Shown piece after piece: positions 1 through 60,702 of a stretch of 64,000 bases of DNA (position 1 is the first letter of the stretch; each line of letters opens with the position of its first letter). Position numbers and translations under genes: made by a program. The notes beneath the pieces are model-generated. The model was given only the letters and a program-made list of their open reading frames with translations. It was not told where the DNA came from and did not search any database. The stretch covers positions 62,001 through 126,000 of the IMG/VR virus record IMGVR_UViG_3300014720_000017. One strand, 5' to 3'. The DNA comes from a virus.

Positions 1-295
1 AACTGCTCCAATAGAATCAGGCACTACCTTATATGCAGATAATATAGATTTTGATGGAGAAAAATATACTAAAATTTTTATGGAAGATGTGTATTCTACA
101 GAAGAAGAAAGAAGTAAATTTGCAAAATATAGACAAGAACAAAGATCGCACTTTACTCCCACAATACAGATCGGAAATGTATACAACAGATGTATTATTT
201 TTGATACCAGAAATTGGCATAGTGCAGACAATTTTTTTGGCAAAGGTAAAGAAGATACTAGATTAACTAATGTATTCTTTTTCAAGGTAAGATAA
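1..295 (+). CDS. 2OG-Fe(II) oxygenase-like protein, C-terminal part (5' end outside window)
   Basis: The reading frame is open from the left edge (codons start at base 2) and ends in TAA at 293-295. Only about 97 residues are visible. The tail NWHSADNFFG followed by DTRLTNVFFF matches the distal iron-binding His and the 2-oxoglutarate-binding Arg of the DUF6445-type putative 2OG-Fe(II) oxygenases. It is clearly related to the next gene, whose equivalent segment is LWHSPANTFG then GRLTVTFF, so the two are tandem paralogs. The stop overlaps the next start (TAATG). Substrate unknown. Confidence 0.7.
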   Translation, partial: TAPIESGTTLYADNIDFDGEKYTKIFMEDVYSTEEERSKFAKYRQEQRSHFTPTIQIGNVYNRCIIFDTRNWHSADNFFGKGKEDTRLTNVFFFKVR

Positions 296-813
296 TGTTA
301 ACTAATATTGCACAACATTTTAAAATTGTTGATAATTTTTTAGAATTGCCTGGTTTATGGAGATCGTTTGCACTAAAACAGGAATACACAAAAGATCAAT
401 CGGGATATCCTGGTAAAAAAAGCAAACCATTGGACGAAATACACGAGAATATTTTCCATTCGTTAGCAGAAAAAATTGTTAAACATGTCAGTGGAAAAAA
501 TAATTTTCAAAGATTGAAAATACAATTTGCATATACAGAGGAGTCTAAATTTTTACAAAATATACATCAAGACGAGTTATTTTATAACGTAGCGGGAATA
601 ATTTATCTAAATGAAAATCCTCCTATAGGTACCGGAACTTTATTTTATAATAAGAATCCTAACGGCGAGTTAATAAAAACCCTAACTGTAGAAAATGTCT
701 TTAATAGAATGATTATTTTTAATCCAACTTTGTGGCATTCTCCTGCGAATACGTTCGGCAATGATCTTGAAACAGGCAGACTTACCGTTACGTTTTTTGG
801 AATAGCAACATGA
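295..813 (+). CDS. DUF6445-type putative 2OG-Fe(II) oxygenase
   Basis: This 172-residue protein has the double-stranded beta-helix signature of small 2OG-dependent oxygenases. The proximal HQD (HxD) triad is near residue 91, the distal His is in LWHSPANTFG near residue 146, and the 2OG-binding Arg is in GRLTVTFF near the C-terminus. Such enzymes use Fe(II), O2 and 2-oxoglutarate, usually to hydroxylate a substrate; the substrate is not predictable. The gene overlaps its neighbours by 1 and 4 bases and belongs to an AT-rich run of five same-strand oxygenase-like genes. It is a paralog of the partial gene upstream. Confidence 0.75.
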   Translation: MLTNIAQHFKIVDNFLELPGLWRSFALKQEYTKDQSGYPGKKSKPLDEIHENIFHSLAEKIVKHVSGKNNFQRLKIQFAYTEESKFLQNIHQDELFYNVAGIIYLNENPPIGTGTLFYNKNPNGELIKTLTVENVFNRMIIFNPTLWHSPANTFGNDLETGRLTVTFFGIAT

Positions 814-1421
814 ATGATAATATATTTGAAATTGAAAACATAATTCCCATTGATTATCAAAATCACATAGAAAAAATTATGTTAGGATCAAATTTCCCGT
901 GGTATTATAATCCTAATCTAGTTAGCCCGGATCAGCCCTTTTTGAAACGAAATGACAATCATCAAGGATTTAATCATCTTTTTTTAGAAGAAGGTAAGCC
1001 ATCAGCATACTTCGAACTGGTGTATCCATTAGCTCTTAGTATTACTAGCCAGCCGTGCATATCTGCAAATAATCTCATACGTATGCGAGCCAACTTAACA
1101 TTAAATGCAGCCGGGTCTTCTCTGCAACATCATCTTCCACATATAGATACATGGCGACCACACTGGGTGGCAATTTATTACGTTAATGACAGCGACGGTG
1201 AAACTGTGATTTTTAACGAGACCAACGATACTTATAACAGCGGACAATTAGATATTGATAGAACCCTAGCCGGAAATTTTACAATCAAGAAAAAAATCAA
1301 ACCAAAAAAGGGTAAAGTGGTAATATTCGAAGGAAAATATTATCACACGTCGTCCTGGCCAATTGAAAATAAATGTAGAAGCGTGATAAACATGAATTTA
1401 GAAAATATAGTGATCCCCTGA
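810..1421 (+). CDS. putative 2OG-Fe(II) oxygenase
   Basis: A 203-residue protein. The motif PHIDTWRPHW near residue 110 supplies HxD, YYVNDSDGETVIF is the typical following strand pair, and YYHTSSWP plus a later Arg (CRSVINMNL) supply the distal His and the 2OG-binding Arg. The GETVIF turn resembles the prolyl-4-hydroxylase-like branch of the superfamily. It overlaps the previous gene by 4 bases and the next by 1, so it is probably co-transcribed and translationally coupled. Fold confident, substrate unknown. Confidence 0.75.
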   Translation: MNDNIFEIENIIPIDYQNHIEKIMLGSNFPWYYNPNLVSPDQPFLKRNDNHQGFNHLFLEEGKPSAYFELVYPLALSITSQPCISANNLIRMRANLTLNAAGSSLQHHLPHIDTWRPHWVAIYYVNDSDGETVIFNETNDTYNSGQLDIDRTLAGNFTIKKKIKPKKGKVVIFEGKYYHTSSWPIENKCRSVINMNLENIVIP

Positions 1422-44714: not shown

Positions 44715-45217
44715 GAATTTTAACACTTAACAACACGGCATTTGATCTTAACGAACTACCCGACGAAGTAGATGAGGATACTAGATTTTCAGTTCTTGAT
44801 AACAGCAATCCTCAAGAGCCAGATTTCTTTTTCATGCCGTTAATTTTTCTCGAATCGTTTAACAGTCCTGCGATATTGCTGAAAGTCGGCGGGCACGAGA
44901 TACAGATGCCATTAGATTGGTGTATGGTGGTAGGCGACAAAGAATGCGGGCTAGATCCCGAAGTTCTTCCTTTAACCAGCATCAATGAACGAGGATTCGA
45001 TGCGCTGGTGTTTAATCCTATCAAAGGCTTCAAAGCCGAATTTATGCCTATAGAAATCGTCAATATCTTCCAGGATGTCAGATGGTATTTTCCCAAGATG
45101 AAAAATGGACAATTACTAACTGTGCCGTTGCATGACGACCCAAATCCCCCCTGTGTGTTTTTTGTCAAGGAAGTCAGCAGGCAAAGTGAAGTTGTGCAGC
45201 TACACAAATTAGTTTGA
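44711..45217 (+). CDS. hypothetical protein coupled to uvsW (168 aa)
   Basis: A 168-residue acidic protein (NNTAFDLNELPDEVDEDTRF; SPAILLKVGGHEIQMPLDWCMVVGDKECG; FDALVFNPIKGFKAEFMPIEI) starting in an ATGA overlap with uvsW. The pattern VGGHEIQMPLDWCMVVGD looks like a small beta-barrel. The C-terminus YFPKMKNGQLLTVPL...PPCVFFVKEV adds two strands. No recognised family. Coupling to uvsW suggests a DNA metabolism or transcription accessory role, but nothing in the sequence proves it. Confidence 0.55.
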   Translation: MRILTLNNTAFDLNELPDEVDEDTRFSVLDNSNPQEPDFFFMPLIFLESFNSPAILLKVGGHEIQMPLDWCMVVGDKECGLDPEVLPLTSINERGFDALVFNPIKGFKAEFMPIEIVNIFQDVRWYFPKMKNGQLLTVPLHDDPNPPCVFFVKEVSRQSEVVQLHKLV

Positions 45218-45225
45218 AATAAATA
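45218..45225 (+). promoter_or_regulatory. late promoter-like motif (AATAAATACTC)
   Basis: AATAAATACTCAG lies 28 nt before ATG 45254, whose leader contains AAAAGG as a Shine-Dalgarno site. It opens the second glycan island with a late signal. Confidence 0.55.
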
Positions 45226-45253
45226 CTCAGTTAATTAATTAAAAAGGTGCAAT

Positions 45254-45598
45254 ATGAAAGCAGGTAAAGTATGGGGTCAAACAGAACTCCTCGAAGCCAA
45301 CGGTGTATTAGAGTTTCACCGTATTGAAGCCACAGCAGGTGGTGTGTGTTCCAAGCACAAGCATCAATTTAAGTGGAACGGCTTTTTCGTCGAATCGGGT
45401 AAACTTGTTATCCGTGTATGGAAAAACAATTATGACCTAGTAGACGAAACTGTGTTAACAGCAGGTCAATATACAAAGGTCGCTCCTGGAGAATATCATC
45501 AATTCGAAGCTGTAGAAGATACCGTAGCGTTTGAACTTTACTGGGCAGAGTTTGATCACGACGATATAGAACGAGAGAGTGTAGGGTTTTCAAAATGA
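45254..45598 (+). CDS. cupin-fold protein (sugar isomerase-like)
   Basis: A 114-residue single cupin domain. GGVCSKHKHQFKWNGFFVESGKLVIRVW is cupin motif 1 (His residues as metal ligands) and GQYTKVAPGEYHQFEAVEDTVAFELYW is motif 2. Small cupins of this kind act as sugar-nucleotide isomerases or epimerases, or as metal-dependent sensors in surface polysaccharide clusters. It begins the second glycan island and overlaps the fucosyltransferase-like gene by 4 bases. Confidence 0.7.
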   Translation: MKAGKVWGQTELLEANGVLEFHRIEATAGGVCSKHKHQFKWNGFFVESGKLVIRVWKNNYDLVDETVLTAGQYTKVAPGEYHQFEAVEDTVAFELYWAEFDHDDIERESVGFSK

Positions 45599-46440
45599 AA
45601 CAAATGATTATCTTCTCCGATGGGGGATTAGGTAATAGGTTGAATAGTTTAATTGGCGGATTGGTAGCAGCAGAAGTTACACAATCAATTCCAATAATAT
45701 GTTGGCCTATTAATAATTGGTGTAGGTGTACTTTTCAAGATCTATATGAAAGTCAAATATTAACGATGGATGATGATATACACTCTGTATTTTTAGAAGA
45801 TGATCGACATTACATCATCCATCAAAATCAAACAAATAAAACTTTAAAAAAAGTAAGCGAACATTCTTTAAAAAAATTGCTGTCAATGGCAGATGTAGAT
45901 GAAGATATAGTTTATTATAATAACAAATTACCAAGTTATTTTACATCAAAACAGATAATTTCTAATCTTAAAAAATTTAAAATTCAAAAAAACATTTTAT
46001 CTGTAGTTCAAAACTTTTGTAAATCAAAAGGTATAGATAAGAATATCAAAGGTGTTCATTTAAGGAAAACAGATCACGGTAAACAATTAGACAGCAACGT
46101 AATTTTTTATCAAATTGAAAACGATCTAAAATCAAAATATTTTGTTTGTTCAGATGACGAAGCAACAGAAAAAGAATTTAGTAGATTAAAAAACGTCATT
46201 GTATTTCCTAAGACAAACTATGTTGAAAAATTAACTGACGGAGATTGGACTACTAAAATTTCCGATACTGAGGGTAGAATATTTCCCTATAATGTTAATC
46301 GATCAGCGCAATCGGTAATACAAGCACTGGCTGACCTTTTGATTTTATCAAGAACAAATATTGTGGTTAGAAATAAAAGCTCTTTCTTAGGATGGGCTAA
46401 GATCTATGGGCAGATAGCCGATCTCAACGAATTTTCATAA
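45595..46440 (+). CDS. fucosyltransferase-like protein (NodZ/GT23-type)
   Basis: A 281-residue protein. MIIFSDGGLGNRLNSLIGGL at the N-terminus is the typical 'GGLGNqlnsl' loop of fucosyltransferase-like GT-B enzymes. GVHLRKTDHGKQ near residue 152 is the HxRxxD motif used by NodZ/POFUT families to bind the GDP-sugar phosphate. ALADLLILSRTNIVVRNKSSFLGWA matches the C-terminal 'D...LS....v....SsF...A'. It would use a GDP-sugar, consistent with the GDP-mannose epimerase encoded next. It is strongly AT-rich. Confidence 0.7.
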   Translation: MKQMIIFSDGGLGNRLNSLIGGLVAAEVTQSIPIICWPINNWCRCTFQDLYESQILTMDDDIHSVFLEDDRHYIIHQNQTNKTLKKVSEHSLKKLLSMADVDEDIVYYNNKLPSYFTSKQIISNLKKFKIQKNILSVVQNFCKSKGIDKNIKGVHLRKTDHGKQLDSNVIFYQIENDLKSKYFVCSDDEATEKEFSRLKNVIVFPKTNYVEKLTDGDWTTKISDTEGRIFPYNVNRSAQSVIQALADLLILSRTNIVVRNKSSFLGWAKIYGQIADLNEFS

Positions 46441-46446
46441 TAAATA
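46439..46446 (+). promoter_or_regulatory. late promoter-like motif (AATAAATA)
   Basis: AATAAATATATAC overlaps the stop codon of the fucosyltransferase-like gene and lies 22 nt before ATG 46469, with AAAGGA as Shine-Dalgarno site in the leader. It probably drives the long run of overlapping genes to 53554 and beyond. Confidence 0.55.
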
Positions 46447-46468
46447 TATACTTAATAAAGGATTTATT

Positions 46469-47440
46469 ATGAAAAAAATACTTGTCTGCGGTGCCGGTGG
46501 CTTTATAGGAACGCATTTAGTTACAAGTCTAAAAGAAAAAGGTTTTTATGTAATCGGAGCAGACCTAAAGTACCCGGAATATAGTATGACCGATGCAGAC
46601 GAATTCCATATTTGTGATTTGAGATCTCAGGCGAATATTGAAAAACTCATAACAAACGATCTTTATGAGATTTATCAGCTGGCCGCCGATATGGGCGGCG
46701 CTGGCTATATCTTTACCGGTGAGAATGATGCTGACATCATGCACAATTCAGCCATGATCAATCTCAACATTGCTCATGAAATGGTTAAAAAAGATTTAAA
46801 GAGAATTTTTTACAGTTCAAGCGCCTGCATGTATCCGGCTTACAATCAAAAAGATCCTAGCAACCCGTTGCTGAGTGAAGAAAGCGCATATCCTGCGGCA
46901 CCGGACAGTGAATATGGTTGGGAAAAATTATTCAGTGAACGTGTGTTTATCGCATTCGCTAAAAACTATGATATTAGAACAAGAATCGCTCGTTTCCATA
47001 ATATTTTTGGGCCGTTGGGTGCATGGAATAACGGAAAGGAAAAATCTCCTGCCGCTCTATGTCGAAAAGTAGCAATGAGTACCGGTGAAGTTGAAGTATG
47101 GGGGCCTGGGACGCAGACAAGAAGCTTTCTTTTCATTAAAGAATGTATTGAAGGTATCCATAAAATAATGGAAAGTGATTGTAATTTTCCGATTAATCTC
47201 GGCAGTGAAAGAATGATAGCAATTAACGATCTGGCTTTGTTAATTGCCGATAGAGCAGGCAAAAAAATTACCATTAAAAATATTCCAGGTCCTCTTGGAG
47301 TAATGGGGCGGAACAGCCACAATAAACTAATCATGGACAGTATCGGGTGGCGACCCGGTGAAGATCTAGAATACGGAATCGATCAGACTTATGCTTGGAT
47401 CAAACATCAAATAGATAACGGAATAGAAGACACTAAATGA
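46469..47440 (+). CDS. GDP-mannose 3,5-epimerase
   Basis: A 323-residue SDR-type epimerase very close in pattern to plant GDP-mannose 3,5-epimerase. GAGGFIGTHLV is the NAD loop, then QLAADMGGAGYI, and SSSACMYP (the family's catalytic Cys145). YGWEK is the YxxxK pair. RIARFHNIFGPLGAWNNGKEKSPAALCRK contains the family's catalytic Lys217 equivalent. GTQTRSFLFIKECIEGI and IPGPLGVMGRNSHN complete the match. It converts GDP-D-mannose to GDP-L-galactose or GDP-L-gulose, a donor for the neighbouring fucosyltransferase-like enzyme. GDP-mannose must come from the host or from genes outside the window. Confidence 0.85.
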   Translation: MKKILVCGAGGFIGTHLVTSLKEKGFYVIGADLKYPEYSMTDADEFHICDLRSQANIEKLITNDLYEIYQLAADMGGAGYIFTGENDADIMHNSAMINLNIAHEMVKKDLKRIFYSSSACMYPAYNQKDPSNPLLSEESAYPAAPDSEYGWEKLFSERVFIAFAKNYDIRTRIARFHNIFGPLGAWNNGKEKSPAALCRKVAMSTGEVEVWGPGTQTRSFLFIKECIEGIHKIMESDCNFPINLGSERMIAINDLALLIADRAGKKITIKNIPGPLGVMGRNSHNKLIMDSIGWRPGEDLEYGIDQTYAWIKHQIDNGIEDTK

Positions 47441-48204
47441 AAGTAGGAATAGTTGGTTACGGCTGGATTGGAAAAGCAACTCATAAGTTATTTCCTCAAG
47501 CACAAATATATGACAAATATCAAACAAATTTTTCTAAACCATTAGATGATTGTGATATCGCGTTTCTAGCAGTACCAACGCCCTGGACAGGAGGTCCGGA
47601 ATTAGATTGTTCTGCCGTTGAGGATGCTATAGAAAATTGTGGGTGTAATTTTATAGTGATTAGATCAGCAACACAGCCAGGATTTGCAGATCGCATGACA
47701 AAAAGGTTTCCAAATAAAAGAATAGTGGTACAACCTGAATATCTAGGAGAAACTCCTAACCATCCATTCTTGCAGATGGAATCTAGAAAATTTATAGTGA
47801 TCGGAGGCGATCCAGAAGATCGCAGAAAGGTCATTGAATGTTATCAGCAGGCCTACAATGCCAATGTGTCAATAAGACAAGTATCTAGACTAGAAGCAGA
47901 AGTAATTAAGTTCAGCGAAAATCGAGCGATCTTTTATAAAGTTATGCAATGTCAAGAATTATATGATGCTTGTGAAGCGGCTGGGATAGATTATTATACT
48001 ATTAGAGATGCGGTCTATGGAGACGATCCAAGAATGAATCTGTGGTGGACATTTGTTTATCCTAAAAGTAGAGGAGCCAACAGCAAGTGTATTCCTAAAG
48101 ATGTATATGCCTGGTGTGCCTGGGCTGAGAGTGTTGGAATTGATCCAGAAGCAACTAGGTCGCTCTTAAAATACAACGAGAAATTAATAAAGAAAAATGC
48201 TTAA
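47437..48204 (+). CDS. short UDP-glucose/GDP-mannose dehydrogenase-like protein
   Basis: A 255-residue protein with KVGIVGYGWIGKATHKLF (Rossmann), AFLAVPTPWTGGPELDCSAVEDAI, VIRSATQPGFADRM, VQPEYLGETPNHPF and ANSKCIPKDVYAW, whose Cys corresponds to the catalytic Cys of UDP-glucose dehydrogenase (G-G-S-C-x-P-K-D). The C-terminal UDP-binding domain of the ~400-residue enzymes is missing, so it is a shortened type. It may oxidise a nucleotide sugar to a uronic acid, or may have lost the full four-electron reaction. It overlaps neighbours on both sides. Confidence 0.75.
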   Translation: MKVGIVGYGWIGKATHKLFPQAQIYDKYQTNFSKPLDDCDIAFLAVPTPWTGGPELDCSAVEDAIENCGCNFIVIRSATQPGFADRMTKRFPNKRIVVQPEYLGETPNHPFLQMESRKFIVIGGDPEDRRKVIECYQQAYNANVSIRQVSRLEAEVIKFSENRAIFYKVMQCQELYDACEAAGIDYYTIRDAVYGDDPRMNLWWTFVYPKSRGANSKCIPKDVYAWCAWAESVGIDPEATRSLLKYNEKLIKKNA

Positions 48205-48910
48205 TCAGTTTGAAAAAAAAATAGTTTCTCAAAATGGCGAAGACGGTATTATTGAGGAACTTATTAAAAGACTAAATTTGCAAAATCTATGGTGCTGCGA
48301 GTTTGGAGCATGGGATGGGATGTATCTTAGCAATACATTTCATTTAATACGCACAACAAAAGCAAAGGTTGTAATGATAGAAGGAGATTCATCTAAATTT
48401 CCTAAATTGTTATGGACTCAATCAAAATATCCTGATCAAATCATAGCTTTAAATTTTTATGTAGATCATACACCTAATGCTAAAAATTCTTTAGATAAAA
48501 TTTTATCAAACACATCTATACCTAAAGATTTTGATATTTTAAGCATTGATATAGATTCACACGATTTAGATGTTTGGGAATCATTACAAGAATATCAGCC
48601 TAAAATCGTAGTGATAGAAATTAACAATGAAATTCCCCCTGGAATAAAACAGCGACACTCTACAGAAAATTGGTTAAACAGTTTTACAAGTACTGTGGAA
48701 GTAGGAATAATCAAAGGTTATACGTTGGTTTGTCATAGTTTTAATTTATTTTTTGTTAGAAATGATTTAGTTCATAAATTAAATTTAGATCAAACTATTT
48801 TGAACGATCCTGATAAATTGTTCAATTGGAGATGGGTTGAACGTGCTAAAAAAGCTGTTTACAAACAACAACGTAGACAATGGAAACAAGAAAAACAATC
48901 TCTAGGCTGA
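48197..48910 (+). CDS. FkbM-like methyltransferase-fold protein
   Basis: A 237-residue protein: EKKIVSQNGEDGIIEELIKRL (the common 'SQxGEDgii' opening), WCCEFGAWDGMYLSNTF as SAM motif I, AKVVMIEGDSSKFPKLLW, FDILSIDIDSHDLDVWESL and PKIVVIEINNEIP. It belongs to the FkbM-related methyltransferases found in surface polysaccharide clusters. Strongly AT-rich. It overlaps the dehydrogenase by 8 bases. Confidence 0.7.
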   Translation: MLNQFEKKIVSQNGEDGIIEELIKRLNLQNLWCCEFGAWDGMYLSNTFHLIRTTKAKVVMIEGDSSKFPKLLWTQSKYPDQIIALNFYVDHTPNAKNSLDKILSNTSIPKDFDILSIDIDSHDLDVWESLQEYQPKIVVIEINNEIPPGIKQRHSTENWLNSFTSTVEVGIIKGYTLVCHSFNLFFVRNDLVHKLNLDQTILNDPDKLFNWRWVERAKKAVYKQQRRQWKQEKQSLG

Positions 48911-48911
48911 T

Positions 48912-49583
48912 ATGGGAATAATTAACTTACACATTGTTAAAATTAATCAGTTACTAGATTCTCATTTCCAGCGAGACAAAGAAAAAAATGTGGCAGTGAT
49001 TGGTTTTCCAGATCTGTATCAAAATATGCCTTTGCTTGAGGAATTGTTTGGTCGCACAATTATTAAACGATCAAAATTAAATGATGTAATACAACTAATT
49101 GAATTATTAAAAATTAAATTTAACTGTCAATCTACTATTTTTGATGTAACCCAGCATAGAGGATTAGAAGTTTATTTAGATTTAAATAAACCGTTGCCGG
49201 CAGAATATAAAAACAAATTTGATTTTGTAATAGATAGCAGTTGTCTTGAACATTGTTTTAACATTGCACAGGCATTTAATAACTTATGTGATCTAGTGAA
49301 AGTAGGAGGAATAGTTACAACGGTAGCCCCTGTTTATGATTTTAATCATGGATATTTTAATGTCAACCCTTTGTTTCACGAAGATGGTTTTAAATACAAC
49401 GGTTTTGATATTTTATCACAAAATATTATAAATGAATGGGGAGATATTATACCGGAGTTTGGTCCCAAAAGCCGACCACATAAGTCTTACATATTATCCG
49501 CTGCCATTAAAAAAATAGATCAGGACTTTGTCTATCCTATTCAAAGAAGTAAACCAAAAAGTAAAAGATACGACGAGAAATAA
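48912..49583 (+). CDS. methyltransferase-like protein (223 aa)
   Basis: A 223-residue protein with a weak class I methyltransferase pattern: VAVIGFPDLYQNMPLLEELFG, STIFDVTQHRGLEVYLDLNK, FDFVIDSSCLEHCFNIAQAFNNLCDLVKVGGIVTTVAP (the 'D.....vleH......al.n...llkpGG' block) and FNVNPLFHEDGF. The first glycine-rich motif is degenerate, so activity is uncertain. It starts 1 base after the previous stop. AT-rich. Confidence 0.6.
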   Translation: MGIINLHIVKINQLLDSHFQRDKEKNVAVIGFPDLYQNMPLLEELFGRTIIKRSKLNDVIQLIELLKIKFNCQSTIFDVTQHRGLEVYLDLNKPLPAEYKNKFDFVIDSSCLEHCFNIAQAFNNLCDLVKVGGIVTTVAPVYDFNHGYFNVNPLFHEDGFKYNGFDILSQNIINEWGDIIPEFGPKSRPHKSYILSAAIKKIDQDFVYPIQRSKPKSKRYDEK

Positions 49584-49586
49584 TTT

Positions 49587-50165
49587 ATGAACCCGTGGGA
49601 AAAAACAGAAAATTTTGAAGGTAAGGTGAAAGTTTATTATGAAAATTTACTAAAACATTTTTCACGTTTTAAGAATAATATTTTCATAGAATCGGGCACT
49701 TTTTTAGGCAACGGTTTAAATTGTGCCTTGCAAGCAGGCTTTCAAGAATGTTACAGTGTTGAAATACATGAACATTTATATCTTAAGGCCAAAGATAGAT
49801 TTGGTAAAGAAATTAAACGACAACGAGTAAAATTGTATCACGGTGATTCAGGAATTATTTTACGTCCAATAATTGAATCGTTAACAGCCCCGGCTACGTT
49901 TTGGTTAGATGCCCATATAAGTTCTAACTATGGAGAAAAACTTGCAAAAAATTGTCCTGTGATAGAGGAATTAGAATTTATAAAAAACAGTCGTATAAAA
50001 AATCATACAATATTGATAGATGATTTAAATTGTTTTGGCAAGGAAGCGCATGACTATATAACTATAGATCAAGTTAAAGAATATATAAAGTCTATAAATT
50101 TAGAATACAAGTTTGAATTTTTAGATGCAGCAGTATCAAAAAATATTTTAGCAGCTTATATATAA
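49587..50165 (+). CDS. methyltransferase-like protein (192 aa)
   Basis: A 192-residue protein: NNIFIESGTFLGNGLNCALQAGFQECYSVEIHEHLYLKAKDRF has the motif I/motif II layout of SAM-binding proteins, then VKLYHGDSGIILRPIIES, TFWLDAHISSNYGEK and HTILIDDLNCFG. Similar proteins occur next to sugar methyltransferases and glycosyltransferases in phages. Activity is inferred only. It starts 3 bases after the previous gene. Confidence 0.6.
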   Translation: MNPWEKTENFEGKVKVYYENLLKHFSRFKNNIFIESGTFLGNGLNCALQAGFQECYSVEIHEHLYLKAKDRFGKEIKRQRVKLYHGDSGIILRPIIESLTAPATFWLDAHISSNYGEKLAKNCPVIEELEFIKNSRIKNHTILIDDLNCFGKEAHDYITIDQVKEYIKSINLEYKFEFLDAAVSKNILAAYI

Positions 50166-50174
50166 GGAAATAAA

Positions 50175-50747
50175 ATGGGAAAACACGTCGAAGCTCACGA
50201 TCCAAATAATCCACATCTAGGTGGAAACTATATAGATATGAACGAGCACACTCACAGCCCTAGAGCGTGGAGCTATGTTATCAGCAAATATGGAATAAAG
50301 TCTGTTTTAGATATCGGGTCAGGTCGAGGACACGCTGCTAAATGGTTTAATGATCAAGGTTTAATATCTTTGGCCATTGAAGGTATGCAAGAAAACTGCA
50401 GGCTCGCTGTGCATCCTACAGAATGTGTAGATTTAACGGAAAAAACTTTCACTGCAGACGTAGATATGGTTAATTGTGTAGAAGTAGTAGAACATGTAGA
50501 AGAAAAATATTTAGATAATCTACTCACAGCTTTATGTTGCGGAAAATACATTTTTATGACGCATGGTAGACCAAAACAGCGAGGCCACCACCACGTAAAC
50601 AATCAACCCACCAGTTATTGGATAAATCATTTACAGGCTAGAGGTTTTAAATTATTAGAGGACGACTCTATGGAGATAAAACGGTTGGCTAACGAAGATG
50701 GTGCCACCCATATTAACGACACCGGCATGCTTTTCGTAAAGGTATAA
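50175..50747 (+). CDS. class I SAM-dependent methyltransferase
   Basis: A 190-residue methyltransferase. KSVLDIGSGRGHAAKWFNDQG is a clear motif I, SLAIEGMQENCRLA motif II, VDMVNCVEVVEHVEEKYLDNLLTAL and KYIFMTHGRPKQRGHHH complete the fold. The His-rich GHHHVNNQPTSYW segment resembles phage methyltransferases acting on sugars. It has a fair RBS (AAGGAAAT) and leads directly into the amidotransferase gene (1 base gap). Confidence 0.75.
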   Translation: MGKHVEAHDPNNPHLGGNYIDMNEHTHSPRAWSYVISKYGIKSVLDIGSGRGHAAKWFNDQGLISLAIEGMQENCRLAVHPTECVDLTEKTFTADVDMVNCVEVVEHVEEKYLDNLLTALCCGKYIFMTHGRPKQRGHHHVNNQPTSYWINHLQARGFKLLEDDSMEIKRLANEDGATHINDTGMLFVKV

Positions 50748-50748
50748 A

Positions 50749-52083
50749 ATGTGTGGATTCGCTGTATCAAATGTAGGAAACCTTCTGGGTTCAAATCAAT
50801 TTTGTTCTAAAAGAGGTCCAGATTCTACGGATAGACAAGAAATCAATGGTGTTGAATTTCTGCACAATCATCTGCATATAACAGGATCAATATTAAAGCA
50901 ACCGTTTGTTAAAGATGACATCGTTTGTGTATTCAACGGTGAAATTTATAACTACAAAGAATTTGGTACTTATCGAAGCGACGGCGAATGTATCATCGAT
51001 GTTTATAAAAATTACGGTGATAAATTTGCTGAAAAACTCGACGGTGAATTCGCAATTTGTATTGTAGATTTTGTTCAACAAAAATTAATAACTGTAACTG
51101 ATGCATTTTCTTGCAAACCTCTTTGGTATGAAATTAAAGATAGAAAATTTTGTGTAGCATCGTATAACAGTCAATTGTATGGGCTAGGTTTCATAGATGG
51201 AATAAAACAAAAATCCAACACCACAAGAGTTTATAATTTACGAAAAATATCTCTTAATTTGTTAGCCGAGCATGAAAATGTTATTTTTGATCTTCGGCAA
51301 CATAAAACTACTTTCGACGATTGGATTCATGCGTTCCAACAGAGTATTTCAAAAAGGATCGCCAACACAGAATACGGAATGTTCTGCGGAATGAGTTCCG
51401 GATACGACAGCGGTGCGATTGCCTGCGAACTTGAAAAACAACGAGCGAAATTCAAAGCATACACTATCCGTAACAATGAGAATATCGATGTTCTGAATGC
51501 TAGACTTAAGAAAATTTCAAATACAGAAGCTTTTGAATTAAGCGGGGAAGAATTTCAAATTTGGAAGACCGAACTGAGAACCAACTGCGAAAATTTTAGC
51601 TACAACGATCACTTAATGAGCTATGATATTAAGAAGGATCAGGCATCGATGGGATTGGCTGCAATTTGTAGTAGAGCAAGAAAAGAAAAAAGAAGAATAT
51701 ATTTCAGTGGTCAAGGTGCCGACGAAATAATTAGCGACTATGGATTTGGTGGAACTAAAATTTACAAACATAGTTCTTTTGGTGGCAAGTTTCCTCAAGA
51801 CTTAACAGGATTCTTTCCCTGGCACAGCTTTTGGGATGGTACTCAAATACAATATCTTAATAAAGAAGAATATATAGCAGGACATTTTGGAATCGAAACA
51901 AGATATCCGTTTCTAGATAAAAATCTTGTTCAAGAATTTCTTTGGTTAACTGCAGACTTGAAAAATAGTAAGTACAAGAGTTGTTTAGACGAATATTTAA
52001 AAATTAATAACTTCCCCTATCAGCCTGCTGAAAAACGAGGATTTCATGTTATAGATAAAGGTAACAAGGTGAGAACTGTATGA
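50749..52083 (+). CDS. asparagine synthetase-like glutamine amidotransferase
   Basis: A 444-residue protein with an Ntn amidotransferase domain (MCGFAV with catalytic Cys2; KRGPDSTDR; VCVFNGEIYNYKEF) and an ATP-pyrophosphatase domain (GMSSGYDSGAIACEL near residue 220; the consensus PP-loop SGGxDS here reads SSGYDS). YFSGQGADEIISDY and FGIETRYPFLDK are further conserved motifs. It is about 100 residues shorter than AsnB. In surface glycan clusters such enzymes (WbpS-like) amidate sugar carboxyl groups, fitting the nearby uronate-forming dehydrogenase. Confidence 0.82.
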   Translation: MCGFAVSNVGNLLGSNQFCSKRGPDSTDRQEINGVEFLHNHLHITGSILKQPFVKDDIVCVFNGEIYNYKEFGTYRSDGECIIDVYKNYGDKFAEKLDGEFAICIVDFVQQKLITVTDAFSCKPLWYEIKDRKFCVASYNSQLYGLGFIDGIKQKSNTTRVYNLRKISLNLLAEHENVIFDLRQHKTTFDDWIHAFQQSISKRIANTEYGMFCGMSSGYDSGAIACELEKQRAKFKAYTIRNNENIDVLNARLKKISNTEAFELSGEEFQIWKTELRTNCENFSYNDHLMSYDIKKDQASMGLAAICSRARKEKRRIYFSGQGADEIISDYGFGGTKIYKHSSFGGKFPQDLTGFFPWHSFWDGTQIQYLNKEEYIAGHFGIETRYPFLDKNLVQEFLWLTADLKNSKYKSCLDEYLKINNFPYQPAEKRGFHVIDKGNKVRTV

Positions 52084-52730
52084 GTAATATTGTTGTAATA
52101 TTAGCCGGTGACAAAAATTTTAAATCATATGTTGAACAGGGAAAACGCAAGACTGAATCGTTAGGTTATCCTGTTGATGCATATGATTTGGGAGGGTTAG
52201 GATTTGGAACCCCCTTCGTTGGGAAGGTCAGTGATGAACCAAATGCTAAGATACCCTGTAAACCTAGAATCATTCTCGAGGCATTGAAAAAAGTAAACGA
52301 CGGGGACTATGTAGTTTGGCTTGATGCCGATGCTCTCATCCAACAACGAATAGATGAAATCAAGGAAGATTATGATATCGCAGTGACGGTTAGGGCGCCA
52401 AAAGCAGTGGAACATTCTTTACCTATCAATGCAGGAATAGTTTTCGTTAGAAAGACAAAATCTGCGATTAAATTTGTAAATGATTGGATGACTCTATCAG
52501 AACAAGGCGTAAGTGATCAGCCTCCTTTAAACAAGCTGTGTGCTGTCAGCAGCAAAGATAGAGACACCACGGTTAACCGAAACGGTACCAAGATTAAAGT
52601 TTACAGATGTGAAGTTTATAATAATTTTTATAAACAAGGTAAAATAATCAACGGGGTCAATCCGGCGAACGTAAAGATTGTTCATTATAAAACGAAGCTA
52701 AGACATCTGTATCCTTTGGAGAAATCATGA
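52080..52730 (+). CDS. GT-A glycosyltransferase-like protein
   Basis: A 216-residue protein. ILEALKKVNDGDYVVWLDADALIQQRIDEI contains the DAD (DxD) metal site. DIAVTVRAPKAVEHSLPINAGIVFVRKTKSAIKFVNDWM and QPPLNKL are typical of small nucleotide-sugar transferases. It overlaps the amidotransferase and the next epimerase by 4 bases each. Confidence 0.68.
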   Translation: MSNIVVILAGDKNFKSYVEQGKRKTESLGYPVDAYDLGGLGFGTPFVGKVSDEPNAKIPCKPRIILEALKKVNDGDYVVWLDADALIQQRIDEIKEDYDIAVTVRAPKAVEHSLPINAGIVFVRKTKSAIKFVNDWMTLSEQGVSDQPPLNKLCAVSSKDRDTTVNRNGTKIKVYRCEVYNNFYKQGKIINGVNPANVKIVHYKTKLRHLYPLEKS

Positions 52731-53554
52731 AAATCTTAATCACAGGTAATTCAGGTTACATAGGATCTCATCTTTCTGCCATGCTTGGCAAAATAGGCAA
52801 ATATGATGTACACGGGTTAGACAAGAAAAAACCTCAAGTGCCTCTAAGTAAACATTACTATCAAGATATCAGGGATCAAGAATGGCAGATGTCTGATTCG
52901 TATGATTGTGTTATACATCTGGCTGCCGAAGTCGCTGTAGGTAGGAGTGTTAAAAATCCAATACTATATTATACCACTAACACACAAGGCACACTAAATG
53001 TTTTAAGAAACATATCTACCAAACGATTTGTCCATGGGAGTACAGGTTCTGCCGGTCCTATGAATAATCCGTATGGTATCAGCAAAAGAGGTGCCGAAGA
53101 TGTAGTAAGACAATTTTGCACTGTTAATAATATCCCATATACAACATTTAGATTTTACAATGTTACGGGCACGGGCGGGTATGAGCCTACGAATCCAGAT
53201 GGTCTGATGTGGAATCTAATCAACGCAGAAAAGACTGGGGGGTTTAATTTGTTCGGTGACGACTACGATACTGAGGATGGGTCTGCGGTAAGGGACTATA
53301 CACATGTCAACGAAATATGCACTGCTCTGGTTTCAGCCTTAGAAGAAAGTACCAATCAAATAGAAAACCTCGGACATGGGATTGGAACCACAGTGAAACA
53401 GATGATATCTCTTTATAAAGCCGTTAATAATTGCGATTTCGAAGTTAGGATCTGTCCTCGCAGAGACGGTGATCTAGAAAGAAGTGTGTTAGACAATCCG
53501 TCGAAATTCATGCAGAAACTATATTCTATGGAAGATTTACTAAAGGTAAAATGA
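52727..53554 (+). CDS. NAD-dependent sugar epimerase (GalE-like)
   Basis: A 275-residue SDR epimerase. ITGNSGYIGSHLSAML is the NAD-binding loop (GxxGxxG), VIHLAAEVAVGRSVKNP, VHGSTGSAG, NPYGISKRGAED (YxxxK) and EDGSAVRDYTHVNEIC (a typical GalE block) follow, then NLGHGIGTTVKQMI. The reaction is probably a C4 epimerisation of a UDP-hexose or amino sugar. It is shorter than GalE (338). It is the last glycan gene before replication genes. Confidence 0.8.
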   Translation: MKILITGNSGYIGSHLSAMLGKIGKYDVHGLDKKKPQVPLSKHYYQDIRDQEWQMSDSYDCVIHLAAEVAVGRSVKNPILYYTTNTQGTLNVLRNISTKRFVHGSTGSAGPMNNPYGISKRGAEDVVRQFCTVNNIPYTTFRFYNVTGTGGYEPTNPDGLMWNLINAEKTGGFNLFGDDYDTEDGSAVRDYTHVNEICTALVSALEESTNQIENLGHGIGTTVKQMISLYKAVNNCDFEVRICPRRDGDLERSVLDNPSKFMQKLYSMEDLLKVK

Positions 53555-53814: not shown

Positions 53815-54280
53815 ACACGTAGATCTATTCAAAGATATGATTCCTGCAGTAGACATGGGGATCAAAGAACTTTGGGACGCTGCCACCGAAGAAGGTCGCC
53901 AAGAAATCAAAGGTGATTTTTGGAATCTCAATCGCTATATCAGTTCAGTTAAATCCTCCAATTCAGAACTGCAGGAACACTATGTACTCACCGTCAATGA
54001 ATACTACAACAAGCATTGGGCTGATATACAACAGCATCCGCAATTGGTATGGCAGACTCTATGCCTCTGCAGCCACGAATCGAAAAAAACACACTTCCAC
54101 GAATGGATTCCTCTGAAAACACGCAAGAACAAAAAAGAAGAATTCATCGCAGAACAGTTTCCTAACATGAAGCGAGCAGACATTGAAACACTGGCAGAAC
54201 TCACCACAGATCAAGAAATCAAACAGTACTGTGAGAACCTTGGTTGGGACAAAAAGCAGATCCATGGACTTAAACTTTAA
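53801..54280 (+). CDS. clamp loader small subunit-like protein (gp62-like)
   Basis: A 159-residue protein with the outline of cyanophage-type gp62: VDLFKDMIPAVDMGIKELWDAATEEG, WNLNRYISSVKSSNSELQEHYVLTVNEYYNKHWADIQQHPQLVWQTLCLCS, HEWIPLKTRKNKKEEFIAEQFPNMKRADIETLAELT and LGWDKKQI. gp62 works with gp44 to load the gp45 clamp, but gp44 and gp45 are not in this window, so the assignment is tentative. It overlaps both neighbours. Confidence 0.5.
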   Translation: MGKNKHVDLFKDMIPAVDMGIKELWDAATEEGRQEIKGDFWNLNRYISSVKSSNSELQEHYVLTVNEYYNKHWADIQQHPQLVWQTLCLCSHESKKTHFHEWIPLKTRKNKKEEFIAEQFPNMKRADIETLAELTTDQEIKQYCENLGWDKKQIHGLKL

Positions 54281-54947
54281 GTGCGAATACTGCGGTAAAG
54301 CATTTGCTAAGGAAAAGACTCTGTTTGTGCATGTCTGTGAACAAAAACGTCGTTATCTCAGTCGAGATGAACGACATGTACAGATGGGACTGATCACCTT
54401 CCAACGATTTTACGATCTCACACAAAAATCCAAATCAGTTAAAACCTTTGACGAATTTGATGCCAGTCCGTACTATACTGCATTTGTGAAGTTTGGCAGT
54501 TTCATGATCAATACTGCCCCTATCTATCCTGAACGATTCATTGACTTTGTGATCAAGAGCGGAGTCAAGTTAGATCACTGGTGTCGCGATGAGTTATATG
54601 ATTCATACATCAGTGAATTGATCAAGTTAGAACCCGCAGACGGAGCCATACAAAGAACCATACAGAACATGATGGCCTGGAGTGAAAAGAATCACAGTGC
54701 TTGGGAACACTATTTTGCCTATGTGAATCTCAATCGTGCCACACATGATATCAAAGAAGGATTGATCTCTCCTTGGATCCTGTTAAATACTCGAGAAGGC
54801 AAGGCCATGCTGCAGAAGATGAATGATGAACAGCTGGCCATAGTTGGTCCAGTGATCGATCCGCAGTTTTGGCTGCGTAGATTTAAAGAATTGCCTGAAG
54901 ATCTAGAACTGGTACGAGATGTCATCAAGGAAGCTAAGATACTGTGA
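54264..54947 (+). CDS. C2H2 zinc-finger-bearing protein (227 aa)
   Basis: I start at ATG 54264 (MDLNFKCEYCGKAFAKEKTL); the longer frame from 54183 lies inside the preceding gene. CEYCGKAFAKEKTLFVHVC is a zinc-finger-like motif (Cys-x2-Cys...His-x-Cys) at residues 7-25. The rest is helical with conserved-looking LITFQRFYDLTQ, YYTAFVKFG, RFIDFVIKSGVKLDHWCRDELYDSYI and WILLNTREGK. Related proteins occur in other aquatic T4-like phages (from memory). Probably DNA- or RNA-associated; function unproved. Confidence 0.6.
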   Translation: MDLNFKCEYCGKAFAKEKTLFVHVCEQKRRYLSRDERHVQMGLITFQRFYDLTQKSKSVKTFDEFDASPYYTAFVKFGSFMINTAPIYPERFIDFVIKSGVKLDHWCRDELYDSYISELIKLEPADGAIQRTIQNMMAWSEKNHSAWEHYFAYVNLNRATHDIKEGLISPWILLNTREGKAMLQKMNDEQLAIVGPVIDPQFWLRRFKELPEDLELVRDVIKEAKIL

Positions 54948-55174
54948 TGCCGAAAAAACCCAAGGTGGAAGAAGTGGTAGAAGAGTTGGCAGAAAATGAA
55001 ACTTTTATTTCAGACGAAGACATCGAGATAGAAGTGATGTATACTAGTGATGAAGAGCCTGCTGTTTACGTGAAGTTTACTAACTTTGCAGATGTAGAAG
55101 ATGCAGAAGCTTACGCAGAATTTCTTGCAGAAACATTGCCATTACTGTTGTTTGAAACCACAAGGATACATTGA
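54947..55174 (+). CDS. small acidic protein (75 aa)
   Basis: An acidic ~75-residue protein (MPKKPKVEEVVEELAENETF...IEVMYTSDEEPAVYVKFTNFADVEDAEAYAEFLAETLPLLLF). ATG 54947 overlaps the previous stop by one base; a GTG at 54944 is an alternative. The end looks like a beta-strand plus helix unit. No family recognised; small acidic proteins in this position could be transcription or clamp cofactors. Confidence 0.5.
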   Translation: MPKKPKVEEVVEELAENETFISDEDIEIEVMYTSDEEPAVYVKFTNFADVEDAEAYAEFLAETLPLLLFETTRIH

Positions 55175-55371
55175 TGACTAGAACTTTAAAAAACGGAGAA
55201 TCTGTCGAAGAGCTGGAAATTCCAGTGATACTCACCATTAAAACCAAGTGCCCACAAAAATACATGCTGATTGATCAAGAGACCGGCGAGGTATATACAC
55301 CGCACACAACTCCAGGTTCTAGTCAATGGCGTAAGATCGCACAGGGTGATCTAGAATTTATTTGGAACTAA
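55174..55371 (+). CDS. small hypothetical protein (65 aa)
   Basis: A 65-residue protein: TRTLKNGESVEELEIPVILTIKTKCPQKYMLIDQETGEVYTPH...WRKI. It starts at ATG 55174, overlapping the previous stop by one base. The VLTIKTKCPQKYMLIDQETGEVY segment suggests a small beta sandwich. No recognised family. It is in a tightly packed operon with the DnaE-like gene, which starts 1 base after its stop. Confidence 0.5.
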   Translation: MTRTLKNGESVEELEIPVILTIKTKCPQKYMLIDQETGEVYTPHTTPGSSQWRKIAQGDLEFIWN

Positions 55372-55372
55372 A

Positions 55373-55951
55373 ATGCCTGACATCGACATAGACTTCGTTG
55401 ATAGAGATTCTGCACTTGATCTGTTTAAGCACATCAAGGCCAGTCGTGTAGATAGCGGTCAATTGGTCAAACACAATACCGGTGTTTATTTTCACGCAGT
55501 TCCAGTAAATGCTGAGGCCAATGTCTGTGCTGTGCCCTATGATCAAGCAGAAACGCAAGGATATTTCAAGATAGATTTTTTAAATGTTGGTATCTACAAA
55601 GGTGTTCGCGATGAAGCGCATCAAGTGGAATTAATGAATCAGGAGCCTCTATGGGATCTACTTCAACAACAAGAGTTCGTCGATCTGTTATTTCATTTGA
55701 ATGGCCATGGTGCAATTCTGAAACAGTGTTGCCCTACTTCCGTGGAACAATTAGCTGCGGTCCTTGCCATGATACGGCCAGCCAAGAGGCATTTGATTGG
55801 GAAGTCTTGGACGGAGATAATGAAAGAAGTTTGGATCAAACCAGAGACTGACGAATACTACTTTAAGAAAAGCCACGCTACGGCCTATGCTGTGGCTATC
55901 GTGGTGCAGATGAACTTAATATGTGAAAGTATCAGCTACGGATTCACGTAG
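55373..55951 (+). CDS. miniature DnaE-like protein (DNA polymerase III alpha-related)
   Basis: A 192-residue protein whose blocks follow DnaE: MPDIDIDFVDRD (compare 'DFDIDF' of the palm), GYFKIDFLNVGIYKGV ('KxDFLGL..L'), PLWDLLQQQ, CPTSVEQLAAVLAMIRPAKRHLIGKSW ('.t.f.DLiav.al.RPgp') and YYFKKSHATAYAVAIVVQMNLI ('FnkSHAaaYa'). It is six times shorter than DnaE, lacks the PHP and beta-binding domains, and has much of the palm and fingers collapsed. A catalytic polymerase is unlikely; a decoy or regulator of host polymerase is possible (inference). Confidence 0.6.
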   Translation: MPDIDIDFVDRDSALDLFKHIKASRVDSGQLVKHNTGVYFHAVPVNAEANVCAVPYDQAETQGYFKIDFLNVGIYKGVRDEAHQVELMNQEPLWDLLQQQEFVDLLFHLNGHGAILKQCCPTSVEQLAAVLAMIRPAKRHLIGKSWTEIMKEVWIKPETDEYYFKKSHATAYAVAIVVQMNLICESISYGFT

Positions 55952-56318
55952 ATATTTTTCTAACCAGTGTGATCGATTTGCGTTTCACACGTTTGACTAT
56001 GATATCATTGAGACTGGTACAGGGGCCAAATAGTACCTTGACATCTTTGGTAGAAAAGGTCTTGACCACATACCGGAAAATAGCCAGTTCTTTTGCTAGA
56101 AAGATATTGATAGGAATCTGTCTATTTGATTCCCACCACCATGTTTCGCCTAGTTCTATAAACTGTTGTTTTTCGAGATCTGTACGAATACTGCTGTAAT
56201 CGTAGATACTGGTAACCTGAGCATCTTGGTTGATAATTATACCAACATATTCGTGATTTACGTGGTTGATAACGCTGATGAACGGAAAATTTTCTTGTAG
56301 GTTAGTTGATATTCTCAT
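55944..56318 (-). CDS. hypothetical protein (124 aa)
   Basis: A 124-residue alpha/beta protein on the minus strand: FPFISVINHVNHEYVGIIINQDAQVTSIYDYSSI, then QQFIELGETWWWESNRQIPINIFL and a basic C-terminus VKRVKRKSITLVRK. It overlaps the DnaE-like gene end by 8 bases (convergent). No family recognised. Its divergent partner is the structural gene at 56350. Confidence 0.6.
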   Translation of the reverse strand: MRISTNLQENFPFISVINHVNHEYVGIIINQDAQVTSIYDYSSIRTDLEKQQFIELGETWWWESNRQIPINIFLAKELAIFRYVVKTFSTKDVKVLFGPCTSLNDIIVKRVKRKSITLVRKIST

Positions 56319-57186: not shown

Positions 57187-58218
57187 ATGACTCTCGTTGT
57201 GGACAAGTTCCGTGCTCTATTACCGCCTCGTGCCAAACACAGTCCTTCCGGTTGGACATCGTTTAATGCACCCTGCTGCCACCATCGAGGACACAAATCG
57301 GACACACGCAAACGAGGCGGTATTCGTTTTGACAGCAACGGTATAGTCTATAACTGTTTCAACTGTAAATTCACAACTGGTTGGCAACCAGGATCCCCGT
57401 TTGGCGAAAAGATGAAAACACTGAGTCGCTGGATGGGTGCTAGTGAAGATACTGTGAAAGAATTAATATTTGAAGCGATAAAAACAGAAGGTGATGAATA
57501 CCGGCCGGCCCCATCTGCAATTCAGGTCGCATTTACAGATAAAGAACTGCCGGAGGGTGCAATGCCCTTGTTAGACTGGGTAAACAGCGAATATTTCAAA
57601 GACGTGTCTATTTTACTCGAACCAGTGATTTCTTATGTTGTAAACCGCGGCTACGACCCCTACAATGGCGATTTTTACTGGAGTCCTAGCCCGGGATATG
57701 AAAATCGTGTTATTTTGCCTTTTAGGTGGCAGGGACGTATAGTTGGCAATACCGCTCGTAAAATCGTTAACGGAAAACCAAAGTATCTATCAGATCAACA
57801 TCCGCATTTTGTATTCAACTTTGATCGTCAGCTGGAAGAACAGAAGTATATACTTGTCTGCGAAGGTCCGTTTGACGCTCTAGCGGTTGGGGGTGTTGCT
57901 CTACTAACTAATGAAATTGCTGAACAGCAGGCAAGGATAATTGATAGTCTAGAAGCAGAAGTTATTGTGATACCGGATCAAGACACAGCTGGACTTATGT
58001 TGTTTGATCGTGCAGCTGAACTAGATTGGAGCATAGCAATGCCTAATTGGGGTCCGGACGTCAAAGATGTAGCAGATGCTGTACAGCGTTACGGTCAATT
58101 ATTTGTGATAGTAGATGCTATTAAAACTGCACAGCGAGGCCAGATAAAAATTAAAATGGCTAAACAACAACAAGAACATAAATTACAGAGGTTAGAATAT
58201 GATAAAGAAAATAGTTGA
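57187..58218 (+). CDS. 61: DNA primase (gp61)
   Basis: A 343-residue DnaG-type primase. An N-terminal zinc-binding region has CCHH (residues 30-33) and CFNC (57-60). A TOPRIM domain follows: YILVCEGPFDALAVGG near residue 217 with the conserved Glu, and VIVIPDQDTAGLMLFDRA near 257 with the DxD. Supporting blocks are ENRVILPFRWQGRIVGNTARK and PKYLSDQHPH. With gp41 it forms the primosome. A lysine/glutamine-rich helix ends the protein. It shares its 3' end with a 38-aa ORF. Confidence 0.9.
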   Translation: MTLVVDKFRALLPPRAKHSPSGWTSFNAPCCHHRGHKSDTRKRGGIRFDSNGIVYNCFNCKFTTGWQPGSPFGEKMKTLSRWMGASEDTVKELIFEAIKTEGDEYRPAPSAIQVAFTDKELPEGAMPLLDWVNSEYFKDVSILLEPVISYVVNRGYDPYNGDFYWSPSPGYENRVILPFRWQGRIVGNTARKIVNGKPKYLSDQHPHFVFNFDRQLEEQKYILVCEGPFDALAVGGVALLTNEIAEQQARIIDSLEAEVIVIPDQDTAGLMLFDRAAELDWSIAMPNWGPDVKDVADAVQRYGQLFVIVDAIKTAQRGQIKIKMAKQQQEHKLQRLEYDKENS

Positions 58219-59265: not shown

Positions 59266-60702
59266 ATGATAAAAGACTACGGATACGAAGTACAAAAATT
59301 ATATCTTGAATTAATGCTGTCAGACGCAGAAGTGTTCGTGCGCTGTCAAGGTATATTTGACCATACCCTATTTGATCGCAAACTGCAGGATGCTGCAGAG
59401 TTCATCAATGAATATGCTAAACAGTACACAGTGCTGCCAGAATATGACATGGTGAATGCATCGTGTAGACTAGATCTCAAACGACCAGACATAGTCAAAG
59501 ATGGTCATCTAGAATGGCTCATGGATGAGTTTGAATCATTCACACGTCACAAAGCCATCGAACGTGCTATCATTGCGTCAGCGGATCTATTAGAAAAACA
59601 CAACTACGGTGAGGTGGAAACACTGATCAAAGCCGCGGTACAGATAGGACTGGCTAGAGACATGGGCACAGACTATTTTGAAGATCCTCGAGGTAGGCTA
59701 ATGGGGCTCAAAGACAAGAACGGGCAGATCTCTACGGGTTGGCCCTGCATGGATCGTAAACTATTTGGTGGTATGAATCGCGGAGAGCTTAACATATTCG
59801 CGGGCGGGTCAGGTGCGGGTAAAAGTCTGTTCTTGGCTAATCTCGGAGTAAATTGGGCTCTGCAGGGACTTAATGTGGTTTATCTAACACTGGAGCTTTC
59901 AGAAGCACTGGTAAGTATGCGGATCGATTCCATGATCACTGGAGTGCCTACCAGAGAAATCTTCCGTGATCTTGATGATGTGGAAATGAAAGTCAAGATG
60001 ATCGGTAAGAAAGCGGGACAGTTACAGATCAAATACATGCCTTCGGGCAAAACAGTCAACGACATACGAGCCTATGTCAAAGAATACGAAATCAAATGTG
60101 GCAAGCCCATCGACGTGCTGTTGATAGACTATATGGACTTGTTGATGCCCATTGGTAAGAAGATCTCCGCGGAGAATCTCTTCGTCAAAGACAAATATGT
60201 ATCTGAAGAAATACGCAACTTGGCCATGGAAAAACAGGTGCTGTGTGTGACCGCAGCACAGTTGAATCGAGGTGCCGTAGAAGAAGTAGAGTTTGATCAC
60301 AGCCATATCTCGGGAGGATTGAGCAAGATCCAGACCGCAGACAACGTGTTTGGTATCTTTACATCCAGAGCCATGCGTGAGCGTGGCCGCTATCAGCTGC
60401 AATTGATGAAGACCAGATCCAGTTCGGGTGTGGGCCAAAAGATTGATCTAGAGTTCAATCTCGACAGCCTAAGGATATCAGATCTACCAGAAGATGAGCA
60501 AGACACACAGAACAACGCCAGTCGAGGCAGTACCAGTATCATCCAACAGATCAAACGCAAGACTGATCTTCAGAGAACAGATCCCGTCACAGGAGAAATC
60601 GATCCAGCTCAGGGAGCTCCTGTGGCCAAAGTGCGAGCCAATGTCGAAGGTACCAAACTGCGTGAGATCTTAAACAGCATGAACACAGATGAAGACATCT
60701 AA
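59266..60702 (+). CDS. 41: replicative DNA helicase (gp41)
   Basis: A 478-residue DnaB-family helicase. GGSGAGKS (residues 180-187) is the Walker A loop, VVYLTLELSEALVSMRID H1a, VLLIDYMDLLMP Walker B, CVTAAQLNRGA the sensor loop, and DNVFGIFTSRAMRERGRYQLQLMKTRSSSGVG the arginine-finger region. The N-terminal ~150 residues form the helical primase-interaction domain. It unwinds DNA at the fork with gp61. Its C-terminus overlaps the next small ORF by 14 bases. Confidence 0.92.
   Translation: MIKDYGYEVQKLYLELMLSDAEVFVRCQGIFDHTLFDRKLQDAAEFINEYAKQYTVLPEYDMVNASCRLDLKRPDIVKDGHLEWLMDEFESFTRHKAIERAIIASADLLEKHNYGEVETLIKAAVQIGLARDMGTDYFEDPRGRLMGLKDKNGQISTGWPCMDRKLFGGMNRGELNIFAGGSGAGKSLFLANLGVNWALQGLNVVYLTLELSEALVSMRIDSMITGVPTREIFRDLDDVEMKVKMIGKKAGQLQIKYMPSGKTVNDIRAYVKEYEIKCGKPIDVLLIDYMDLLMPIGKKISAENLFVKDKYVSEEIRNLAMEKQVLCVTAAQLNRGAVEEVEFDHSHISGGLSKIQTADNVFGIFTSRAMRERGRYQLQLMKTRSSSGVGQKIDLEFNLDSLRISDLPEDEQDTQNNASRGSTSIIQQIKRKTDLQRTDPVTGEIDPAQGAPVAKVRANVEGTKLREILNSMNTDEDI

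Follow-up and report, generated by a model that had tools for sequence, protein, structure and literature searches.

The gene analysed here lies in a 64,000-nucleotide stretch of viral DNA (the window; positions 62,001 to 126,000 of IMG/VR record IMGVR_UViG_3300014720_000017). On the plus strand at 55373..55951, an open reading frame with an ATG start encodes a protein of 192 aa that begins MPDIDIDF. The ATG lies 1 nt past the stop of a 65-aa gene directly upstream (55174..55371, plus strand), which is not part of the enzyme described below, and the 3' end overlaps, tail to tail, a 124-aa gene on the minus strand (55944..56318, phrog_11637). A gp61-type DNA primase (57187..58218, plus strand; phrog_47, E 1.2e-31) and a gp41/DnaB-type replicative helicase (59266..60702, plus strand; phrog_19, E 2e-69) follow, and a UvsW-type helicase is encoded at about 43269-44714. 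An earlier note, made from the sequence alone, had spoken of a phage with T4-type replication genes, and that description held. Between the UvsW-type helicase and this cluster, 44711-53554 contains sugar-nucleotide, methyltransferase, asparagine-synthase-like and cupin genes, and nothing similar was annotated there in the phage relatives viewed. A 227-aa C2H2-like zinc-finger protein (phrog_11058, E 3.1e-59) is encoded upstream at 54264-54947 on the plus strand.

The 192-aa product matched PHROG_11778, a family labelled 'DNA polymerase', over residues 3-186 (E 5.1e-66). It matched phrog_405, a full-length phage polymerase family of 1190 positions, more weakly (E 1.4e-6). We call it the C-half, as it corresponds to the second half of the palm and shortened fingers of a split minimal Pol III alpha. 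The window C-half by itself gave no match at E<=1 in Pfam or, with phmmer, among PDB sequences, so its link to DnaE needs profiles or structure. A profile of 73 C-half relatives scored E. coli DnaE at 12.3 bits, against 5.3 for the best DnaE shuffle (500 shuffles, a score being reported for 157), and the Pol III finger domain PF17657 was matched by 58 of these 73 relatives (E<=1; best 3.4e-4). The family was also sought in other phages, as the earlier note had proposed. Using tblastn, we found a C-half in 63 of 50,697 phage records, with 36-54% identity to that of the window among the 60 matches listed, and the IMG/VR stretches encoding a relative number at least 570. None of the 590 genome_contigs stretches that matched our pattern encodes one by tblastn, a count that diverged cellular or prophage copies could escape. 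In the seven of 23 pairs with estimable dS, dN/dS between the C-half and its relatives was 0.04-0.12; the other 16 pairs were saturated. ORF 55373-55951 is a real, conserved DnaE-like gene of PHROG_11778.

Conservation was scored in alignments of both this gene and its partner, the N-half introduced below. The C-half alignment A4 (73 rows) took 56 of 80 loci from one listing and 16 of 25 from another, and the N-half alignment A3 (53 rows) took 42 of 80 and 11 of 14. The loci omitted were mostly near-copies; L210 and L211, from the C-half listing of 25, were fragments, and L201 was left out because its match began before the ATG and ran across a stop. Alignments A1 (67 rows, C-half) and A2 (54 rows, N-half) also draw on phage and genome records, which contribute 10 rows to A1 and 12 to A2.

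All four motifs quoted in the earlier note, DIDIDF, KIDFLN, RPAK and FKKSHATAY, are present in that order. We compared them with E. coli DnaE (reference sequence from NC_000913), in which GRGS occupies residues 361-364, PDFDVDF 400-406, KHAGG 510-514, FDFLGL 554-559, LFRPGP 637-642 and FNKSHSAAY 756-764. DIDIDF (residues 3-8; 55379..55396, plus strand, as for the other motifs) places D3 and D5 at E. coli D401 and D403 of PDFDVDF, and KIDFLN (residues 66-71; 55568..55585) places K66 and D68 at K553 and D555. D401, D403, D555 and K553 are catalytic residues of E. coli DnaE, and the window C-half has counterparts of all three aspartates (D3, D5 and D68). HNTG (55472..55483) corresponds to the HAGG of KHAGG, RPAK (residues 135-138; 55775..55786) to LFRPGP in the shortened fingers, and FKKSHATAY (residues 164-172; 55862..55888) to FNKSHSAAY, at the start of a long C-terminal helix (166-190). 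D3, D5 and D7 were kept in all 73 rows of A4, as were H34, G37, K66, D68, R135, P136, K138 and H168; in A1, the sole departure at D3/D5/D7 was a gap in L054, whose range had been cut short. Spacing differs strongly from that of E. coli DnaE. The distance from PDFDVDF to KHAGG is 107 residues in E. coli (403 to 510) and 28 in the window C-half, and that from RPG to FNKSH is 117 (639 to 756) and 29. In E. coli the thumb lies in the first of these stretches, and the two shortened spacings indicate that the C-half has neither the thumb nor the complete fingers. A polymerase that lacks its thumb is out of the ordinary, and this counts against the reading proposed below.

Two annotation matters concern this gene in other records. 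In Agrobacterium phage Atu_ph07 (NC_042013; locus L082, 9001-9073), the annotated start at 9073 comes after the DIDIDF segment, which tblastn aligns from 9001, so that two of the catalytic aspartates seem to be missing from the RefSeq protein. Several records (GAP32_282 and relatives) call the product a 'putative membrane protein' from TM predictions; the long C-terminal helix of the model is the likely cause of this label.

AlphaFold2 models of both halves had a mean pLDDT of 91.8. Compared with known structures by VIA-align, the C-half model had Pol III alpha or PolC chains as its first 15 matches (Z 5.9-9.3), the next unrelated one scoring 3.5. It superposed on E. coli 2hnh 400..781 with Z 8.6 (3.9 A, 184 residues), on Taq 3e0d 461..838 with Z 9.2 and on PolC 3f2c 971..1296 with Z 9.3. 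Foldseek alone returned no row at E<=0.001 for either half; its top rows were Pol III alpha chains for both. The earlier note had named a structure unrelated to DnaE as what would overturn its reading, and the model is DnaE-like. The note was right in describing a T4-type phage that encodes a miniature DnaE palm/finger protein. Its other suggestion, a new nucleic-acid-binding fold, does not fit the Pol III alpha and PolC matches.

The first part of the palm, which bears GRGS, is neither within the ORF nor joined to its upstream end; in related phages it is encoded elsewhere. In seven of ten related records, a separate gene matched Pfam DNA_pol3_alpha above the cut-off at profile positions of about 13-97, and the weak matches of the C-half itself to this profile start at positions 97-99. 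This second gene, the N-half, belongs to PHROG_11127 (E 9.4e-43) and encodes about 170 aa. Its C-terminus, GVGRGSSVASYVLYLIGVHKIDSLKYNLDWREFLR, corresponds to E. coli position 393, and the C-half starts at the equivalent of M399. All 80 N-half frames examined stop exactly 29 residues after GRGS, a loop that grips the dNTP phosphates. GRGS was invariant in 53/53 rows of A3 and 54/54 rows of A2, and it occurred in none of 130 C-half frames; G134, G136, R137, G138 and S139 were kept throughout the 53 A3 rows. Each of these 53 rows also matched DNA_pol3_alpha (E<=1, best 1.4e-13), the first of them at profile positions 12-94. No stop-to-stop frame among the fetched loci contains both halves. In Vibrio phage 2.275.O (locus L185, 2941-3309), the annotation starts the N-half at record position 41616, and tblastn aligns it with that of RaK2 from 41469, 49 codons earlier; the annotated start is probably too far downstream.

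The N-half model superposed on E. coli 2hnh 271..393 with Z 9.8 (3.6 A, 105 residues), the best unrelated row scoring 2.5, and its highest score, Z 12.0, was with 9qrn, an entry titled 'DNA polymerase without DNA or inhibitor'. The ranges covered on E. coli Pol III alpha are complementary and do not overlap: 271-393 for the N-half and 400-781 for the C-half. Modelled in isolation, the N-half has no strand around GRGS, and confidence drops to 76 in residues 131-140, as would be expected if the other subunit completed the sheet. N-half residues 1-60 gave no polymerase match in the structure comparison, only one row of Z 2.0.

The two halves occur together almost without exception. With tblastn (E<=1e-8), an N-half was found in 60 phage records, all among the 63 with a C-half; the lists were compared by eye, and three C-half records that appear in one of two C-half listings were assumed to belong to the other as well. 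Of the three C-half records without an N-half by tblastn, two, the circular 141-kb Alishewanella phages OQ508956 and OQ508957, have a divergent N-half recognized by profile (E 6.4e-19 and 5.3e-19), which in OQ508956 lies about 11 kb from the C-half. In the third, PP728206 (109.5 kb, marked 'UNVERIFIED'), no N-half was found by profile. Both halves are thus present in 62 of the 63 phage records with a C-half. Fourteen large IMG/VR records, chosen from both lists and including that of the window, contained an N-half in eight cases, a C-half in 12 and both in six; most of these records are probably incomplete. Pseudomonas phage Paride (OR805295), which has both halves, is reported to replicate in dormant P. 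aeruginosa (PMC10761892); we claim no causal link between the two.

On the 129,780-base record that contains the window, the C-half begins at 117,373, and neither an N-half nor a family B polymerase was found on this contig. In the six related contigs that carry both genes, the N-half comes first and the C-half follows 159-185 kb further downstream, so the N-half of the window phage is expected beyond the left end of its contig. The closest relative, G001, has a C-half 96% identical to that of the window and a family B polymerase at 260.6 kb; no N-half was found on its 280,019-base contig. The N-half lies 22-26 kb further out than the family B polymerase in five relatives compared by hand, and that of G001 would therefore fall just past the contig end. 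With the expected sites off both contigs, the absence of an N-half from those of the window phage and G001 is uninformative, and by comparison with the relatives the window phage may have both an N-half and a family B polymerase. That neither gene was seen on the window phage's contig, and no N-half on that of G001, still counts among the points against the two-gene reading given below.

We then considered the neighbourhoods of the two genes. All 12 phage relatives viewed have an opposite-strand gene after the C-half, amid a plus-strand replication cluster. GAP32, Paride, Phosso and RaK2 share the order C-half, small opposite-strand gene, one or two genes and then primase, followed by a gp41-type helicase where the view extends that far. 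SCTP-2 has the opposite-strand gene and a helicase near the C-half, and XacN1 and RAS14 have one extra gene between the C-half and the opposite-strand gene, with no primase annotated in the stretch viewed. The N-half lies less than 3 kb from a gp44 clamp loader gene in RaK2, Munch, XacN1 and SCTP-2; none was annotated within the 3 kb viewed in the Vibrio phage, or in the (unannotated) N-half stretch of RAS14. Slicko01 has, between its N-half and C-half, a gene annotated as replication factor C small subunit. A family B polymerase was found in eight of ten and eight of eight related records in two sets; the two without it, G002 (199 kb) and G006 (138 kb), are probably partial contigs. Its motifs A, B and C were intact in all four relatives looked at, and a family A polymerase was found in none of ten. 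No clamp peptide common to the C-half (..ICESISYGFT) and the relatives' family B polymerases (..NTFSKLFDFE or similar) was seen. The family B polymerase beside the C-half in these relatives agrees with one part of the earlier note's judgement that the protein is not needed for synthesis. As a whole that judgement is too strong, because the conserved catalytic residues argue for some synthesis.

Taken together, we consider it quite probable that two genes encode a miniature family C DNA polymerase, accessory to a family B replicase, and that the window protein is its C-terminal subunit. The split enzyme would most likely be an active, thumbless accessory polymerase. The N-half would supply the GRGS loop for the dNTP phosphates within the first part of the palm, and the C-half the second part with three metal-binding aspartates, the active-site lysine and the shortened fingers; the two would bind each other non-covalently to form one Pol-beta-fold active site. 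With PHP, the thumb, part of the fingers and the C-terminal clamp-, DNA- and tau-binding domains gone, the enzyme is likely distributive. It may make short stretches, in primer extension, gap filling or repair, and would work beside the family B replicase with the phage clamp loader, SSB, primase and helicase.

In a more specific version of this proposal, the two proteins, whose genes lie apart, are obligate, non-covalent partners in a thumbless family C polymerase of about 360 residues, which extends primase-made primers on the lagging strand and then passes the DNA to the family B replicase. Such a hand-over would resemble replication by two polymerases in B. subtilis (DnaE to PolC) or in eukaryotes (Pol alpha to Pol delta). 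We put this forward tentatively and think it rather unlikely to hold in full.

The missing thumb and finger segments that make the enzyme look distributive could also be read as a sign that the split core is an active nucleotidyltransferase adding nucleotides, untemplated, to a DNA, RNA or protein end; Pol-beta-fold enzymes include many such transferases. The finger motifs RP.K and F.KSHA..Y, however, are invariant or nearly so, and the neighbourhood is one of replisome genes, which makes an untemplated enzyme distinctly unlikely. We hold it improbable, too, that the DnaE fold survives as a degenerate, non-catalytic replisome subunit serving as a scaffold between the family B polymerase, the clamp loader and the primase/helicase. 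The complete family B polymerase of the relatives and the position of the halves near the gp44 and gp61/gp41 genes would suit such a role, but proteins of this kind usually lose their metal ligands, and here no catalytic residue of either gene varies across phages whose identity to the window protein is 34-96%. The idea raised in the earlier note, that the protein mimics host DnaE, whose fold it shares, to capture the host clamp, tau or primase, is highly improbable, and so is a mimic that poisons the host replicase. The end of the protein corresponds to E. coli residue 781, so that it lacks the segments after about 781 that presumably bind the beta clamp and tau; it lacks the first 270 residues even with its partner, is accompanied by a dedicated partner gene in 62 of the 63 phage records and keeps an invariant catalytic set.

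Activity of the two-gene polymerase would mean that about 360 residues suffice for family C catalysis, with neither a thumb nor a covalently continuous palm. This would bear on the origin of the bacterial replicase, and T4-type giant phages would have a second polymerase. Were the lagging-strand reading true, the pair would possibly be the smallest replicative-type polymerase core known.

The kind of system is already known as a prediction. Iyer et al. 2021 (PMC7824862) predicted a split minimal Pol III alpha in group 2.2 jumbo phages and suggested an ancestral module for the origin of the bacterial replicase. Earlier genome papers contain the N-half as CBB_328 (172 aa, 'truncated'; PMC5259590) and as Atu_ph07 gp316 (PMC6102473), and the relevant passages of PMC5852040 and PMC8504454 name an epsilon subunit only. 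In a literature of mostly open-access coverage, we found no experiments on the split minimal Pol III since the 2021 prediction. Our analysis adds residue and fold tests, the near-perfect co-occurrence, the links to clamp loader and primase/helicase genes and the two 141-kb carriers.

The window phage is an environmental member of the kind described by Iyer et al., and, as in their system, the C-terminal piece with the Mg2+-binding aspartates and the template-binding fingers is a gene of its own. The two 141-kb phages, unlike the jumbo phages of that work, carry the split Pol III below jumbo size. With bacterial DnaE and PolC the split form shares the palm fold, the three catalytic aspartates, GRGS (in the partner gene) and the RP and F.KSH finger motifs. 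It differs from E. coli DnaE, a single protein of 1160 aa, in being divided between proteins of about 170 and 192 aa, and from DnaE and PolC in general in having no PHP domain (neither half reaches E. coli residues before 271, so the absence follows from length and coverage), no thumb, no full fingers and neither a beta-binding nor an OB/tau domain. Sequence relatives of one or both halves exist among the full-length phage DnaE-like polymerases (phrog_405 and phrog_11165, for example in Bacillus phages), which, unlike the split form, are longer single polypeptides. T4 gp43, finally, represents the family B type found in the phages that carry the split Pol III, but its catalytic fold is unrelated, and it is not homologous to the C-half.
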